From: Halobium salinum
Lineage (GTDB): Archaea; Halobacteriota; Halobacteria; Halobacteriales; Haloferacaceae
DNA length: 64,000 nt
Assembly: GCF_026586625.1 (NCBI RefSeq)
Contig: NZ_JAODIW010000010.1
Location: 124,001-188,000, forward strand
Reading direction: 5' to 3'
Shown: positions 27,555-34,998 of the stretch, piece by piece
Position numbering within the stretch: position 1 is the stretch's first letter
Layout: each line of letters begins with the position of its first letter
Program-made: the position numbers and the translations under genes
The notes under the pieces: generated by a model
Seen by the model: the letters and a program-made list of their open reading frames with translations, nothing else
Told to the model about the DNA's origin: nothing
The model's database searches: none

Positions 27555-28526
27555 CTACTCTCCGTCGCCGATTCGCGGGTCCAACGCGTAGTAGGCCGCG
27601 TCCTGCAGGAGGTTGCCGCCGATGCCGACGAACACGACGACGAGCGTCGTCCCGATGATGACCGGCATGTCGCGGTCCATCACCGCCCCGTAGGTGAGCG
27701 TGCCGAGGCCGGGGATGTTGAACACGTACTCGATGACGAATACGTTCAGGACGACGATGGCGACGAGTTCGGTCGTGAACAGCGAGAGGATGGGGATGGC
27801 GCCGTTGCGAAGGACGTGTCTAGCGACGCGGAGCCGGCTCGCCCCCTTCGCCTTCAGGACCTTGACGAACGTGGCTCCGAGGTACTCCATCGACTGCGCG
27901 CGGGTGTAACGCATCAGCCCGGCGTACAACCCCGTCGCGAGCACGAGCGCTGGCGGGAGGAACTGACCGTAGTGAGTGACGTCCCACGCTCCCTGCACGG
28001 CGTAGGAGGTGTCGAACGACGGGGTCGCGAGGATGACGTAGACGACGACGAGTTTCGCGAGAAAGAAGTTCGGCACCCCGAGTGCGATGTAGGAGACGAC
28101 CGACTCGAAACGGTCGACCGCACTCCCGGCCCGCGACGCCGCGTGCATCCCGACGCCGACGCCGACCAGCGAGAGGAGCGTCCCGGGGACGACGTACGCC
28201 AGCGTGTAGCGCAGATGCGTCGCGAGCAGCGCCGTGACCGGGGTCCCCGACTGGAACGACCGGCCCCAGTCCAGCAGCGTCACGTTCACCATCCAGTTCA
28301 CCCACCGAGAGAGCAGCGACTGGTCGAGGTTGCGCGACGCGCGGTAGGCCTCCATCGCCGCCTCTATCTGCGCCGCCGAGGCGCCGCTCCGGGCCATGTT
28401 GTGCCTGATGACCGAGAGGTTCGGGTCGGCCACGAGCGCGACGAAGAGGAACGCGACCGTGACGACGGCGTAGGCGGCGACGACCGCGAAGGCGACGCGG
28501 TTCACCAGCCAGCGGGCGCGTGTCAC
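27555..28526 (-). CDS. DppB-type ABC transporter permease
   Basis: The 323-residue inner-membrane permease is of the peptide/nickel (DppB/OppB) class with six helices. The EAA-loop is visible in LKAKGASRLRVARHVLRNGAIPILSLF (about 215-242), followed by EYVFNIPGLGTLTYGAVMDRDMPVIIGTTLVVV. The N-terminal part matches a second permease encoded 115 bases upstream (RVAFAVVAAYAVVTVAF versus RVGFAVVAVYAVVTVTF). It starts at GTG 28526, overlapping a preceding 18-codon frame by GTGA. No ATPase or solute-binding gene lies near, so it must share subunits encoded elsewhere or be incomplete. Confidence 0.87.
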   Translation of the reverse strand: MTRARWLVNRVAFAVVAAYAVVTVAFLFVALVADPNLSVIRHNMARSGASAAQIEAAMEAYRASRNLDQSLLSRWVNWMVNVTLLDWGRSFQSGTPVTALLATHLRYTLAYVVPGTLLSLVGVGVGMHAASRAGSAVDRFESVVSYIALGVPNFFLAKLVVVYVILATPSFDTSYAVQGAWDVTHYGQFLPPALVLATGLYAGLMRYTRAQSMEYLGATFVKVLKAKGASRLRVARHVLRNGAIPILSLFTTELVAIVVLNVFVIEYVFNIPGLGTLTYGAVMDRDMPVIIGTTLVVVFVGIGGNLLQDAAYYALDPRIGDGE

Positions 28527-28579
28527 GGCGACCTGCCCCCTCCGGCGAGCGCCGCGGACGCGGACGACGGGTCAGTCAT
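28523..28579 (-). CDS. Possible leader peptide (18 aa) coupled to the permease
   Basis: The frame ATG 28579 to TGA 28523 encodes 18 residues (MTDPSSASAALAGGGRSP). The TATA-like box of this transcript is centred about 28 bases upstream of this ATG, the same spacing as in the paralogous permease, so the mRNA should begin at this ATG, not at the permease GTG. Its stop overlaps the permease GTG (GTGA). It could be a regulatory leader peptide, or the sign of a frameshifted N-terminal extension. Confidence 0.4.
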   Translation of the reverse strand: MTDPSSASAALAGGGRSP

Positions 28580-28603
28580 ACTCACGCACGCGGACCGCGC
28601 GGA

Positions 28604-28619
28604 CAATAGTGTTACTGAA
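28604..28619 (-). promoter_or_regulatory. Promoter with TTCAGTAA element, permease 1
   Basis: Read on the minus strand the sequence is CTTCAGTAACACTATT, then G. TTCAGTAA (28611-28618) lies immediately upstream of the TATA-like CACTATT. The paralogous permease has TTCAGCAACACTATTG in the same position, and the third permease gene has TTCAGTAA in the same orientation. Confidence 0.6.
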
Positions 28620-28640
28620 GTGTCCGTTTGAGCCACGGGG

Positions 28641-29606
28641 TCAGTCCGCCGAGCGCGGGTCGACGAGGACCGCGAGGAGGTCTTGCACGAGGTTGCCGCC
28701 GATGCCGACGAAGACGACGACCATCGTGGCACCGACGACGACGGGAAGGTCGCGGGCGCTGATGGCGGCCAGAAGCGTCGTGCCGAACCCCGGGAGCGTC
28801 AGCACCTGTTCGATGACGACGACTTCGAGCACCAACAGCGGGACGAGCTCACCCGAGAGGAGCGTAAACAGCGGCACGACGGTGTTTCGAAAGACGTGTC
28901 TCGTCAGTCGAGCGGGGCTGGCACCCTTGGCTCGGAGCTGTTTGACGAACTGTCTGGGCCGGTAGGCGACGCCCGACCCGCGAGCGTTGCGGAGCACGGT
29001 CGCCGCCGTCCCGGCCGTGACGACGAGCGCCGGCACGAGGACCGACACCTCCGGCGCCTCCCGTGCTCCTCGGACGGGACCGAACGTGTACGCGGCGTTT
29101 CCCGTGAGGAGGAGCGCCAGCAGGACCGTCAGGAAGAACCCGGGGACGCCGAAGGCGACGTACGTCACGACGGTCGCCACTCGGTCCGACAGACCCCGCC
29201 GGCGTCCGACCAGCGAGAGGCCGAGGGGGACGGCGAGCGCCGACAGCACCACCCCGGGGACGAGGTACCGCAGGGTCCGCCCGAGCCCGGCGGCGAGGAC
29301 GGCCACCACCGGTGCCCCCGACTCGAAGGAGCGACCCCAGTCGAACGTCGTGACGTTCACGACCCACCTGACGTACCGGGTGAGAAGCGGTTCGTCGAGG
29401 TTGCGCGCCGCCCGCCAGGCGTCGACCGCCTGAGCGATTTCGGCCGAACTCTTGCTCCGGTGGTGGAGTTCGAAGACGAGGTACCCCTGGTTCGGGTTCG
29501 CCGTGGCCGCCACCAGCGCGAACGTGACGGTGACGACGGCGTAGACGGCGACGACCGCGAAGCCGACCCGTCGGAGGACGCGTCGCGTTCGGCGGGCCGG
29601 AGCCAT
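28641..29606 (-). CDS. DppB-type ABC transporter permease (paralogue)
   Basis: The 321-residue protein is a second DppB/OppB-class permease, paralogous to the downstream one: it shares the DWGRSFESGAPV motif (versus DWGRSFQSGTPV), GVPGFFL and the EAA-loop QLRAKGASPARLTRHVFRNTVVPLFTLL. It has six membrane helices. A heterodimer normally pairs a DppB with a DppC, and the DppC-type gene lies divergently 97 bases away. Having two DppB copies with one DppC suggests alternative transporters sharing one partner, or a duplication. ATG 29606 is about 29 bases from the TATA-like box, so the mRNA appears leaderless. Confidence 0.87.
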   Translation of the reverse strand: MAPARRTRRVLRRVGFAVVAVYAVVTVTFALVAATANPNQGYLVFELHHRSKSSAEIAQAVDAWRAARNLDEPLLTRYVRWVVNVTTFDWGRSFESGAPVVAVLAAGLGRTLRYLVPGVVLSALAVPLGLSLVGRRRGLSDRVATVVTYVAFGVPGFFLTVLLALLLTGNAAYTFGPVRGAREAPEVSVLVPALVVTAGTAATVLRNARGSGVAYRPRQFVKQLRAKGASPARLTRHVFRNTVVPLFTLLSGELVPLLVLEVVVIEQVLTLPGFGTTLLAAISARDLPVVVGATMVVVFVGIGGNLVQDLLAVLVDPRSAD

Positions 29607-29631
29607 GGGACGTACGACCGGCAGCGACCCC

Positions 29632-29647
29632 CAATAGTGTTGCTGAA
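29632..29647 (-). promoter_or_regulatory. Promoter with TTCAGCAA element, permease 2
   Basis: The minus-strand sequence TTTCAGCAACACTATTG covers this stretch. The TATA-like CACTATTG is centred about 29 bases before ATG 29606. The match to the first permease promoter is 15 of 16 bases, far beyond what core promoter needs would explain. Confidence 0.6.
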
Positions 29648-29652
29648 ACGAG

Positions 29653-29679
29653 CACTTCAGTAATTGAAAGGTTTTTGAC
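29653..29679 (+). promoter_or_regulatory. Promoter with TTCAGTAA element, permease 3
   Basis: On the plus strand CTTCAGTAATTGAAAG (29653-29670) precedes GTTTTTGAC (29671-29679), a TATA-like box centred 28 bases before ATG 29703. The TTCAGTAA faces the inverted TTGCTGAA of permease 2, so the two form an inverted repeat across the divergent promoters. Confidence 0.55.
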
Positions 29680-29702
29680 CGCAGGCCGGGTGCGTGGGAA
29701 GC

Positions 29703-30878
29703 ATGGCCACGGACACCGACGGCGACCTCGGGTTCGAGCGCATCGACTGGTCCTCGGTCGAGGGTCGTCGCTCCCCGGTCGGTGTCCGGACGCTCGTCTT
29801 CGTCCTCGGGACGCTCCTGCTCGTCTCTCTGTACCTCTACGACCGGTTCTACGTCGCCCCCGGCAACGCGCTCCTGCTGTCGTGGGATACGAACGCGCTC
29901 GACTGGCCGTTTCTGTTCTCGTTGCTCGCGTTCGGCTGTTACGTACTCTGGCCGCTCGCCGCCAACCCGGTGCGAACGGGGGAGTACTGGCGTCGGCTCC
30001 GGACGAACCCGGTCGCCCTCCTCGCCTTCGCGTACCTCGGTGCCTTCTTCGCCCTCGGGACGCTCGGCCCGGTCGTCTTCGGCGACCCGGCTATCAGCCT
30101 CGACGCCCAACACCAGCCGCCGGCGTTCCTCACCGGGTCGAACGGGCTCTCGGACGACTGCCTCGGCGCCGTAACGGGCCCGACCGGAAACCCGGTGTGT
30201 CACGGGACGCTCGAACACCCGCTCGGCACGGATAGCCTCGGACGGAGCATGTGGCTGCTCGTCCTCTCGGGGATGCGCGTCGCCCTGCAGGTGACCACCA
30301 TCACGAGCGTCCTCATCGTCCCCATCGCCGTCGCCGTCGGCACCGTCGCCGGCAGTTACGGCGGTCGGGTCGACACGGTGCTGATGCGCTACGTCGACGT
30401 TCAGCAGACCGTCCCCGCCCTGCTCGTCTACCTCATCGGCAACTTCGTCTACGGTCGGAGTATCCTCCTGTTCATCGTCGTGTTCGGCCTCCTCAACTGG
30501 GGGAGCGTCGCCCGCGTCGTCAGGAGCGAGGTCATCCAGCGCCGCCAGGAACAGTACGTGACGGCCGCGCGCAACGCTGGTGCGGGCCGCCTCGAGGTCA
30601 TCCGCCGACACATCCTCCCGAACGTGTCGAGCAGCGTCGTCACCGCCCTCACCCAACAGATACCCATCCTCATCCTCACCGAGGCTGCTATCTCCTTTCT
30701 CGAACTCAACAACGTCAACCGGGTCTCGTGGGGCGAGACCATCGTCAACGGGCTGAGCCGGTTCCCTCGCGCGTGGTGGACGGTCGTCGTCCCGGTCGCG
30801 GTCCTCTGTCTCACCGTGGTATCCTTCGCCCTCGTGGGCGACGCGCTGCGGGACGTACTCGACCCGCGGAACTCCTGA
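29703..30878 (+). CDS. DppC-type ABC transporter permease
   Basis: The 391-residue protein has an extended N-terminus with a first helix near residue 30, a second near 65 and an extracellular loop holding two cysteines (SDDCLGAVTGPTGNPVCHG). The conserved LGTDSLGRSMWLLVLSGMRVAL and the EAA-loop AARNAGAGRLEVIRRHILPNVSSSV of DppC/OppC permeases follow. It is transcribed divergently from the two DppB-type genes and should pair with one or both. The two loop cysteines are unusual for a haloarchaeal protein and could form a disulfide. ATG 29703 fits a leaderless start; a GTG 3 codons upstream is possible. Confidence 0.88.
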   Translation: MATDTDGDLGFERIDWSSVEGRRSPVGVRTLVFVLGTLLLVSLYLYDRFYVAPGNALLLSWDTNALDWPFLFSLLAFGCYVLWPLAANPVRTGEYWRRLRTNPVALLAFAYLGAFFALGTLGPVVFGDPAISLDAQHQPPAFLTGSNGLSDDCLGAVTGPTGNPVCHGTLEHPLGTDSLGRSMWLLVLSGMRVALQVTTITSVLIVPIAVAVGTVAGSYGGRVDTVLMRYVDVQQTVPALLVYLIGNFVYGRSILLFIVVFGLLNWGSVARVVRSEVIQRRQEQYVTAARNAGAGRLEVIRRHILPNVSSSVVTALTQQIPILILTEAAISFLELNNVNRVSWGETIVNGLSRFPRAWWTVVVPVAVLCLTVVSFALVGDALRDVLDPRNS

Positions 30879-31997: not shown

Positions 31998-33089
31998 TCA
32001 GTCACCCTCCGCGTCGACGCTCGCCTCGCTACCGGTGGCCTCGATACTTCCCATGTCGGGGGTGCGCCGACCGGCGCGAGCGGATTGGAGTTTACCCAGG
32101 GCGACGGCACAGACGTAGATGCCCACGGCGACGAGGACGATGACCCCGCCGGCCGTGACGCCGCCGTAGTAGGCGACGCCGATTCCCAACAGCACCGCGA
32201 GTTCCGCGAGGACGACCGAGACGACGAGCGACTCGGAGAAGCTCCGGGACACCTGCGTCGCCCCCGCGACCGGGACCACGAGCATCGCCGCGACGAGGAT
32301 GACGCCCATTATCTGCATCGCGCCGACGACGACCATCGCCGTCAGCATCACCATCACGCGGTTGTACCAGTTGACGGAGATGCCGGAGACGGCGGCCGCC
32401 GTCTCGTCGAAGGTGACGTAGAGGAGTTGGTTGCGCGTGACGGCCACCGTCCCGACGATGACGGCGAAGAGGACGAGGAGGATGGCCGCGCTCTGGGGCG
32501 ACACCGTCGACAGGTTGCCGAAGAGGAACTGGTTGACGCCGACGGCGAGCCCGCCCGCGTTGAGGCTGATGAGCGTCGTCCCCAGCGCGAACCCGGTCGA
32601 CAGGACGATAGCCATCGACACGTCGTTGTAGGCGTCGGTGACCTCCGAGATGAGCTCGATGAACAGCGCGGCGATCATCGCCACGACGACGGCGGTGAGG
32701 TACGGCGACACCCCGAGGTCGATGACGGCGTTCAGGAACAGGCCGACGGCCACGCCGGCGAACCCGGTGTGCGCCAGCGCGTCGCCGATGAGCGCGAGCT
32801 GTCGGTGGACCAGGAACGTCCCGATGAGCGGCGCCATCACGCCGACGCAGAGCCCGACGAGTATCGCCCGGTGCATGAACCGGTAGCGCGGGTTCAGCAT
32901 CTCGAGGCCCGTGAAGTAGTACACCCAGTCCATGAGCCAGTACCACTGCTCTAAGAGCCACAGCAGGACGCCGAAGACGAGGTCGCCGACGGCACCCAGC
33001 GCGCCCTGTAGCGGGAGCGCGAGCAACAGCGAGGGGTCCGCGGCGGCGAGAGTACCGGTCACGGGCGCGGCCGTCACGACGGCGTTCAT
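31998..33089 (-). CDS. znuB: Zinc/manganese ABC transporter permease
   Basis: The 363-residue permease has about nine helices and the ABC-3 family sequence FMHRAILVGLCVGVMAPLIGTFLVHRQLALIGDALAHTGFAGVAVG and VATGFALGTTLISL-type segments. It brings Zn2+ or Mn2+ across the membrane. An unusual N-terminal extension of about 65 residues before the first family helix contains hydrophobic stretches (ALPLQGALGAVGDLVFGVLLWLLEQWYWLMDWVYYFTGLEML). It overlaps the ATPase gene by ATGA and is the last gene of a tight three-gene operon. Metal identity is inferred from the family, not from residues. Confidence 0.88.
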   Translation of the reverse strand: MNAVVTAAPVTGTLAAADPSLLLALPLQGALGAVGDLVFGVLLWLLEQWYWLMDWVYYFTGLEMLNPRYRFMHRAILVGLCVGVMAPLIGTFLVHRQLALIGDALAHTGFAGVAVGLFLNAVIDLGVSPYLTAVVVAMIAALFIELISEVTDAYNDVSMAIVLSTGFALGTTLISLNAGGLAVGVNQFLFGNLSTVSPQSAAILLVLFAVIVGTVAVTRNQLLYVTFDETAAAVSGISVNWYNRVMVMLTAMVVVGAMQIMGVILVAAMLVVPVAGATQVSRSFSESLVVSVVLAELAVLLGIGVAYYGGVTAGGVIVLVAVGIYVCAVALGKLQSARAGRRTPDMGSIEATGSEASVDAEGD

Positions 33090-33907
33090 CCGCTCCCACC
33101 CGTGAGAACCCGCGCCTCGGTTCCGAACGCCCGCGCCAGGGCGTCGCTCTCGACGAACTCGTCCGTCGGGCCGTCGAAGTAGAGCTCGCGGTTGAGACAG
33201 ACGACGCGGTCGGCGTGCTCGACGACCGCCCCGAGGTCGTGCTCGATGAGGAGAACGGTGATGCCCTCGGCGTTGAGCGCCGCCAGCAGGTCGTAGAACG
33301 CGTCGACGGACTCGGCGTCGACGCCGACGGTCGGCTCGTCCAGGACGAGCAGGTCGGCCTCGCTCGCCAGCGCCCGCGCGATGAACGCCCGCTGGCGCTG
33401 GCCGCCCGAGAGCTGCGTGACGCGCCGGTCGGCGAACGCGCTCATCCCCACTGTCGCGAGTGCGTCGTCGACGACCGCCCAGTCCTCGCCCGACAGCCGG
33501 CCGAACCCGACGTGCGGGAACCGACCCATCTTCACCACCTCGCGGACGGTGATGGGCATCTCCTTCGCGGCGCTGGCGCGCTGGGCGACGTAGCCGACCC
33601 GCTCGCCGTCGTCGAAGCGGTCGGCCCGCTCGCCGAACAGCCGGGCCGTCCCCGCGTCGGGCTCGAGCAGACCCAGCATCAGCTGCATCAGCGTCGACTT
33701 GCCCGAGCCGTTCGGCCCCACGATGGCGACGTACTCCCCCGGGTCGATAGTCAGCGAGACGTCCTCGACCACGGGTGTCGCCGTGTAGCCGAAGGCCACG
33801 TCGGCGAGGTGGACGACCGGCTCGCCCGCCGCGGCCGCGTCGCTCTCGGCGGTCGGTCGCTCGGCCGTGCCAGCCGCCGTCGCGGATTCGGTGTCCTGCG
33901 GGCTCAT
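33086..33907 (-). CDS. znuC: Zinc/manganese ABC transporter ATP-binding protein
   Basis: The 273-residue ABC ATPase has Walker A GPNGSGKST, a Q-loop in GYVAQRASAAKEM, signature LSGGQRQRAFIARALA, Walker B LLVLDEPTVGVD and the switch histidine LIEHDLG. The first 35 residues are Ala/Thr/Glu-rich and not part of the fold. It powers the metal importer with the flanking binding protein and permease. ATG 33907 overlaps the stop of the binding-protein gene (ATGA), so ATP hydrolysis and transport subunits are made in fixed ratio by coupling. Confidence 0.92.
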   Translation of the reverse strand: MSPQDTESATAAGTAERPTAESDAAAAGEPVVHLADVAFGYTATPVVEDVSLTIDPGEYVAIVGPNGSGKSTLMQLMLGLLEPDAGTARLFGERADRFDDGERVGYVAQRASAAKEMPITVREVVKMGRFPHVGFGRLSGEDWAVVDDALATVGMSAFADRRVTQLSGGQRQRAFIARALASEADLLVLDEPTVGVDAESVDAFYDLLAALNAEGITVLLIEHDLGAVVEHADRVVCLNRELYFDGPTDEFVESDALARAFGTEARVLTGGSG

Positions 33908-34998
33908 GTCGGTTCGAAGTTCCGCCACTGCTCGAGCCAGCCCGCCGATGGGGCCGCGTCCTCGGGGGTCTCGGTGCCGAGGACGATTTCGAGGGTGGGG
34001 AGGTTGATGTTGTAGGCAATCTCCTCGTACCCCCAGTTCTCCTCGACCCACTGCTCGCGGACGCCGGCGTACGGCGTCATGGGGAAGTACGCCTCCACGT
34101 TCGTCTCGCGGACGAGCTGCTGGGCGGGGCGCTGGGACTCGAAGACGCCGTTGGCGATGTACTTGATGTCGTTCTCGCGGATGACCGCCGCCGCTTCGCG
34201 GATGTCCGCGGGTTTGACGTCGCCGCTCGCCGCGAGGCTCGTCACCAGCGGGCGCATCCGCGCGCCGTAGCGTACCCCGATGTACTGGAAGGCGTTGTGC
34301 GCGGCCAACTGGACGACGTCACGCTCGGCCGCCTCGAAGACGGCCTCGTAGTCGCCGTCGATACGCTCCAGCACCTCCGACTTGTAGGTCTCGGCGTTCT
34401 CGCGGAAGGTGTCGGCGTGCTCCGGCAGGAGGTCGGCGAACCCGTCGGCGATGTTGTCGACGGACTGCTTCGCGCGCAGGGGGTCGAGCCAGAAGTGCGG
34501 GTCCTTCCCGCGCTGCGCGCCGACGCCCTCCTCCTCGCGGTCCAGCGACGCCGCCAGGTCGATTAGCTCGACTCCCTTTCGGACGTTGATGAGCGCCGTG
34601 TCGACGTCGTCGCCCTCGACCGTCTCGATGGCCCGGTCGGCCCAGGGCTGGAACTCCGCCCCGACGTGGACGAACGCGTCCGCCTCGATGATGCGCTGCG
34701 TGATGCTCGCGTTCGGCTCCCAGCCGTGACCGTGGAGCCCTGTGGGAACGAGATTCTCCACCGTCAGCGGGGTGCCGTCGGCGACCTGCCGGCCGAAGTC
34801 GTAGAAGCTGAAGAACGACGCTACCGCGACCGGCCCGTCGTCCCCGCCCTCGTCGCCGCCGTCGCCATCGTCTCCGGCCTGCCCGGGCGCACTCGGCAGC
34901 GCCGTGCAGCCGGCTACCCCCGCCAGCGCCGCCGCACCACCGGCGCGCAGTGCGTCGCGTCGCGTCGTCGCTCGTTCGTCGTGGTTTCCAGATGACAT
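33904..34998 (-). CDS. znuA: Zinc/manganese ABC transporter substrate-binding lipoprotein
   Basis: The 364-residue protein has a Tat-type signal (TTRRDALRAGGAAALAGVAG) and a lipobox ending in Cys31, so it is folded in the cytosol, exported and lipid-anchored. The mature part has an Asp/Gly-rich flexible stretch and a cluster A-I binding fold. Metal-ligand candidates are the histidines in PTGLHGHGWEP, FVHVGAEF and DPHFWLDPL. It binds the metal outside and delivers it to the permease. The operator-like palindrome upstream suggests metal-dependent repression. Zn versus Mn is not settled by the sequence. Confidence 0.9.
   Translation of the reverse strand: MSSGNHDERATTRRDALRAGGAAALAGVAGCTALPSAPGQAGDDGDGGDEGGDDGPVAVASFFSFYDFGRQVADGTPLTVENLVPTGLHGHGWEPNASITQRIIEADAFVHVGAEFQPWADRAIETVEGDDVDTALINVRKGVELIDLAASLDREEEGVGAQRGKDPHFWLDPLRAKQSVDNIADGFADLLPEHADTFRENAETYKSEVLERIDGDYEAVFEAAERDVVQLAAHNAFQYIGVRYGARMRPLVTSLAASGDVKPADIREAAAVIRENDIKYIANGVFESQRPAQQLVRETNVEAYFPMTPYAGVREQWVEENWGYEEIAYNINLPTLEIVLGTETPEDAAPSAGWLEQWRNFEPT

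Follow-up and report, generated by a model that had tools for sequence, protein, structure and literature searches.

Three Dpp/Opp-type permease genes adjoin no ATPase or binding-protein gene

Permease genes that stand apart from the other genes of their importer raise the question of which ATPase and binding proteins complete the transporter. Position cannot pair orphan permease genes with orphan ATPase genes. We asked this question of a locus in the haloarchaeon Halobium salinum, which has a 4.46-Mb genome in 14 contigs; the window that we analyzed is the 64-kb stretch from 124001 to 188000 of contig C2 (Table 1). According to the original prediction, two DppB-type genes on the minus strand and one DppC-type gene on the plus strand lie together with no ATPase or binding-protein gene. 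The open reading frames, Pfam matches, and neighborhood all agree with this; the interval given for the three permeases, 28523 to 30878, leaves out the body of dppB1. BPD_transp_1 was present in DppB1, DppB2, and DppC, and OppC_N in DppC, as in ABC permeases of the Dpp/Opp type. The named substrate equivalogs of NCBIfam (DppB, OppB, NikB, and others) all fell far below cut-off for the three permeases. DppB1 and DppB2 are 47% identical. No Dpp-type ATPase gene (DppD or DppF) and no SBP_bac_5 binding-protein gene adjoins dppB1, dppB2, or dppC, and the locus does not encode a complete Dpp importer, for which both would have to adjoin. A ZnuABC-like metal importer (31998 to 34998, minus strand; ZnuA and ABC_tran matches) starts about 1.1 kb past dppC; as a partner of the permeases we rejected it, since it is a different type of transporter.

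Table 1. Features of the permease locus and of related places in the H. salinum genome. Plain numbers are positions in the window.
Feature	Position	Strand	Basis or remark
dppB1, DppB-type permease, 323 aa, GTG start	27555..28526	-	ORF; BPD_transp_1, E 1.4e-27
Leader mini-ORF MTDPSSASAALAGGGRSP, 18 codons, TGA overlaps dppB1 GTG by 4 nt	28523..28579	-	putative ORF, read from sequence
TATA-like box of dppB1 (TATTG), 6 bp past palindrome	28604..28608	-	putative, read from sequence
TTCAGYAA, first copy	28612..28619	-	sequence scan of window
Palindrome of dppB1, CTCAAACGGACACTTCAG (minus strand)	28615..28632	.	one mismatch to CTGAARYGNNCRYTTCAG
dppB2, DppB-type permease, 321 aa	28641..29606	-	ORF; BPD_transp_1, E 2.7e-20
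TATA-like box of dppB2 (TATTG), 6 bp past palindrome	29632..29636	-	putative, read from sequence
TTCAGYAA, second copy	29640..29647	-	sequence scan of window
Palindrome common to dppB2 and dppC, CTGAAACGAGCACTTCAG (plus strand)	29643..29660	.	exact match to CTGAARYGNNCRYTTCAG
TTCAGYAA, third copy	29656..29663	+	sequence scan of window
TATA-like box of dppC (TTTTTG), 11 bp past palindrome	29672..29677	+	putative, read from sequence
dppC, DppC-type permease, 391 aa	29703..30878	+	ORF; BPD_transp_1, E 8.1e-28, and OppC_N
Orphan dppD-dppF pair	C2:445.6-448.1k		beside phosphoribosyltransferase gene; 295 kb from permeases
SBP17 palindrome, two mismatches	C13:490632		orphan binding-protein promoter
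SBP14 palindrome, two mismatches	C13:494635		orphan binding-protein promoter
Other leader ORFs	L125 before 3767 (SBP17) and before SBP14; L145 before its binding-protein gene (C11:38k); L027 before 8063 (dppD)		

The shared promoter element is an 18-bp inverted repeat

The octamer TTCAGYAA had been predicted at all three promoters in the same orientation. We found exactly three copies in the 64-kb window, each at a dppB1, dppB2, or dppC promoter and running along transcription, and none elsewhere; the extended sequences quoted for them were also correct. Only 0.42 copies were expected, and none of 100 shuffles had three. Genome-wide, TTCAGYAA is not enriched (57 matches versus 99 for a reversed control). 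Thus, the octamer alone tells little, and we rejected it as the functional unit. The informative unit is an 18-bp inverted repeat, CTGAARYGN-NCRYTTCAG, of which TTCAGYAA is one arm; the flanks reveal it as CTGAA-N8-TTCAG. The octamers of dppB2 and dppC had been described as two copies facing each other as an inverted repeat; the repeat is real, but the two octamers are the arms of one palindrome common to both genes. This palindrome is one of two exact matches to CTGAARYGNNCRYTTCAG in the genome.

With at most one mismatch, CTGAARYGNNCRYTTCAG occurs at only three places in the 4.46-Mb genome: the dppB1 promoter, the dppB2/dppC promoter, and the promoter of an orphan dppD-dppF pair. Two mismatches yield 13 places, five of which are Dpp-type promoters, including those of the binding proteins SBP14 and SBP17. 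These counts show no excess over a reversed-pattern control (3 versus 2 with one mismatch, 13 versus 45 with two) and are not significant; the significance of the palindrome lies entirely in its placement. By our own arithmetic, chance would put about 0.007 of the 11 sites that lie beyond the permease cluster into the 300 bp upstream of nine other Dpp-type units (2.7 kb of 4.46 Mb), and three were observed. At all of these promoters (dppB1, dppB2/dppC, dppDF, SBP14, and SBP17) the element occupies the same position.

We rejected a wider regulon built on the two-mismatch sites, as most of the other places examined are intragenic or not promoter-like in position. C2:403575 lies within a thioredoxin-reductase-like gene, and C11:800640 precedes, at an unconvincing spacing, a gene with a putative deacylase or carboxypeptidase-like start. 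A single-contig genome of the same order (G023) shows near-matches, such as CTCAAACGGACGTTTCAG, at seven places, L076 and L079 among them; at the two places inspected there, no Dpp genes lay beside them.

The palindrome and the DppD tree point to the same ATPase pair

The genome contains five Dpp-type ATPase pairs, of which four lie within complete loci and one is an orphan. The region upstream of the orphan pair has the palindrome CTGAAGTGCGCGTTTCAG. In the tree, a branch with an SH-aLRT of 99 unites the orphan DppD with ATPases adjoining this DppC type in relatives, one of which is 74% identical to it, and the other DppDs of the genome fall outside this group. Many relatives have ATPases adjoining this DppC type, which shows which ATPases belong to these permeases. 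The DppC tree has a matching split (97) between this DppC type and the complete systems. Palindrome and tree thus pair permeases and ATPases independently of each other. An hpt-like phosphoribosyltransferase gene adjoins the orphan dppDF (L027, 8368 to 9000), and such a gene also adjoins several dpp loci of relatives (L035, L036, L042, L183, and L185).

The permeases might instead borrow their ATPases from any one of the four complete Dpp systems, with the orphan dppDF serving something else. Multitask ATPases are well known in bacterial type I importers (PMC7658222), and in importers served by the unlinked multitask ATPase MsmX the ATPase gene is likewise distant from the permease genes (PMC7658222, PMC5730181). 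However, MsmX is one ATPase for several importers, whereas the tree and promoter evidence here favors one particular pair: the orphan DppD sits on the branch of the ATPases adjoining this DppC type while the other DppDs of this genome do not, and among the ATPase pairs the orphan dppDF alone has the exact palindrome. We consider sharing of this kind improbable.

As a whole, the data are best explained by a Dpp importer that is dispersed over the genome and has a palindrome for one regulator upstream of its parts, a reading that we regard as probable. DppB1, DppB2, and DppC would form the membrane part of one haloarchaeal ABC importer of the Dpp/Opp type, for di- or oligopeptides, and the orphan DppD-DppF of the same genome its ATPase part. 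In Pseudomonas aeruginosa, one DppBCDF translocator likewise works with several binding proteins, DppA1 to DppA5, with DppA5 encoded in a separate region; there, however, permeases and ATPases are encoded in a single operon (PMC4206461), whereas here their genes lie apart with a common palindrome. The pairing by palindrome and tree provides a small, testable regulon and a means of searching for the missing partners wherever a Dpp locus is permease-only, as is often the case in haloarchaea (21 of 52 loci examined).

Two orphan binding proteins are candidate partners

Eight SBP_bac_5 proteins are encoded in the genome, four of them outside complete loci. Two of those four, SBP17 and SBP14, have the two-mismatch palindrome, and the binding proteins of the dispersed importer would probably include these two, at C13:490-497k. 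The evidence for them is weaker than for the ATPase. With 72% identity to the C11:38k binding protein, which is part of a complete system, SBP17 may belong to that system instead; the promoter of the C11:38k binding-protein gene has a related palindrome. The prediction that subunits encoded elsewhere carry the same element therefore held for the orphan ATPase pair and, in a weaker version, for two orphan binding-protein genes, with the palindrome and not TTCAGYAA as the unit. Divergent from SBP17 and beside its palindrome lies a DmsR_N/HTH_10 regulator gene (L125, 2751 to 3629, minus strand), whose product is a possible candidate for the regulator.

The palindrome lies directly upstream of putative TATA boxes

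Each palindrome precedes a TATA-like box, and the spacing between the two falls into two classes, 6 bp (dppB1 and dppB2) and 11 to 12 bp (dppC, dppDF, SBP14, and SBP17). BRE and TATA motifs of haloarchaea have been described (PMC4983044). The palindrome is likely to be the site of one dimeric regulator, which would keep the genes for the permeases, the ATPases, and some of the binding proteins coexpressed. A dyad directly upstream of BRE/TATA fits an activator better than a repressor, and from its position we infer that the palindrome is more likely an activator site. GvpE provides a precedent for activator elements common to divergent promoters (PMC4390858). As in the gas-vesicle promoters, the element here adjoins the putative BRE and serves two divergent haloarchaeal promoters, the two sites overlapping in the middle. 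The GvpE elements, however, are 20 nt long with two 8-nt parts 4 nt apart, and their overlap is 7 nt (PMC4390858); here a single 18-bp dyad with the arms CTGAARYGN serves both sides, and it does not have the GvpE layout.

We found no known regulator recognizing this palindrome in the literature searched. An Lrp, the HTH_10/DmsR_N protein, or another protein could be the regulator. We observed the relaxed palindromes GTAAAATCCGTATTTTAG (L145), GTAAAATCGTGGATTTCG (L146), and GTAAAACCCGTATTTCAG (L136) about 11 bp ahead of the TATA-like boxes of binding-protein genes, which suggests a wider family of such elements. This leads to another reading, that the palindrome is no device dedicated to this importer but one form of a promoter motif widespread in haloarchaea (approximately STRAAA-N6-TTTYAS), through which a global regulator, for example an Lrp/AsnC protein, would govern the uptake of peptides or amino acids. 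The same three palindromes, at the same distance from the TATA-like box, precede binding-protein genes of complete systems (L145 and L146) and a Halomarina rubra homologue (L136). In Halobacterium salinarum R1, furthermore, deletion and overexpression of Lrp alter dppB2 (OE4552F) together with the unlinked dppF1-D1-C1 genes (OE4301R-OE4303R), and the two respond alike (PMC2894021). There, one regulator thus acts on permease and ATPase genes of peptide importers even where their locus numbers are far apart, although no palindrome is given for those dpp genes (PMC2894021), unlike the case here. Against a broad element, the strict palindrome occurs in the H. salinum genome only at the dispersed parts, and we found no Lrp site of this form in the literature searched. 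We judge a broad element to be a serious possibility, if somewhat short of an even chance.

A few relatives keep the palindrome

We classified 52 related loci by gene content (our own count). Twenty-one are permease-only, 24 have dppD-dppF by dppC without a binding-protein gene, five have all parts, and two have a lone dppB. The strict palindrome is absent from most of the 43 orthologous divergent promoter regions, and the palindrome is not conserved across all relatives. A relaxed form occurs in 7 of the 43, versus 1.6 expected, and 1 of 300 simulations reached this number. The divergent promoter L196 has a perfect dyad, CTGAAATCCGGATTTCAG, and L192 has CTGAAACCGCCTGTTCAG; both keep the same asymmetric spacing between palindrome and TATA-like box, 5 to 6 bp on one side and 11 to 12 bp on the other. 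The versions at L193 and L201 have diverged further. The Halomarina rubra locus, with three dppB genes and one dppC and without ATPase genes, has a palindrome at every promoter; those of its three dppB promoters, one of which is common with dppC, are of the type GTGAAACG-NN-CGTTTCAG. The orphan-like ATPase pair of H. rubra has only one arm, CTGAAGCGAGCG. In four further relatives (G271, G274, G287, and G266), the nearest ATPase loci, where dppC adjoins dppD, lack the palindrome. Sharing of the full palindrome by an ATPase promoter was observed in one genome only.

The original prediction had named two findings that would speak against it, absence of the element from orthologous loci and adjoining ATPases without the element, and both were found in part: most orthologous loci lack it, and many have adjoining ATPases and no element, but a few relatives keep the palindrome. 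The observation on which the prediction was based is confirmed, and its interpretation is partly supported.

The absence of ATPase and binding-protein genes alongside the permeases, together with the long branch of DppB2 in the tree, would also fit an importer in decay, of which the permeases would be the leftovers. However, the three genes have intact frames and match their families over the full length, the promoter elements are kept in a few relatives, and permease-only loci make up two-fifths of the related loci, all of which makes decay very improbable.

Several dppB genes in one locus were also seen in relatives: three each in H. rubra, G155, and Halobacterium sp. TGN-42, and two each in G287 and G002. 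The copies of H. rubra, G287, and G002 cluster by genome and seem to be local duplicates. It is plausible that DppB1 and DppB2 are alternative partners of the single DppC, an arrangement that recurs in relatives.

Short leader ORFs precede several of the dispersed units

A short ORF of 18 to 35 codons, with a TGA overlapping the start of the gene by 4 nt, lies ahead of dppB1, SBP14, SBP17, and the C11:38k binding-protein gene, and two such ORFs in a chain lie ahead of dppD. Leader ORFs with this stop-start overlap were found in 9 of 114 H. salinum genes examined, and the first four genes named account for four of the nine. In Haloferax volcanii, termination-reinitiation at such overlaps is established (PMC6728339), and leader ORFs of 15 to 31 aa have been listed (PMC4983044). 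The scattered units could be controlled at two layers. One would be the palindrome as the site of an activator; the other would be the leader mini-ORFs (before dppB1, SBP14, and SBP17, and as the chain before dppD), themselves leaderless, which would make translation of the importer depend on prior reading of a short peptide, possibly as amino-acid sensing. We think this two-layer control improbable. In the relatives, leader ORFs precede 19 of 62 dppB, 6 of 55 dppC, 1 of 30 dppD, and 1 of 31 dppF genes.
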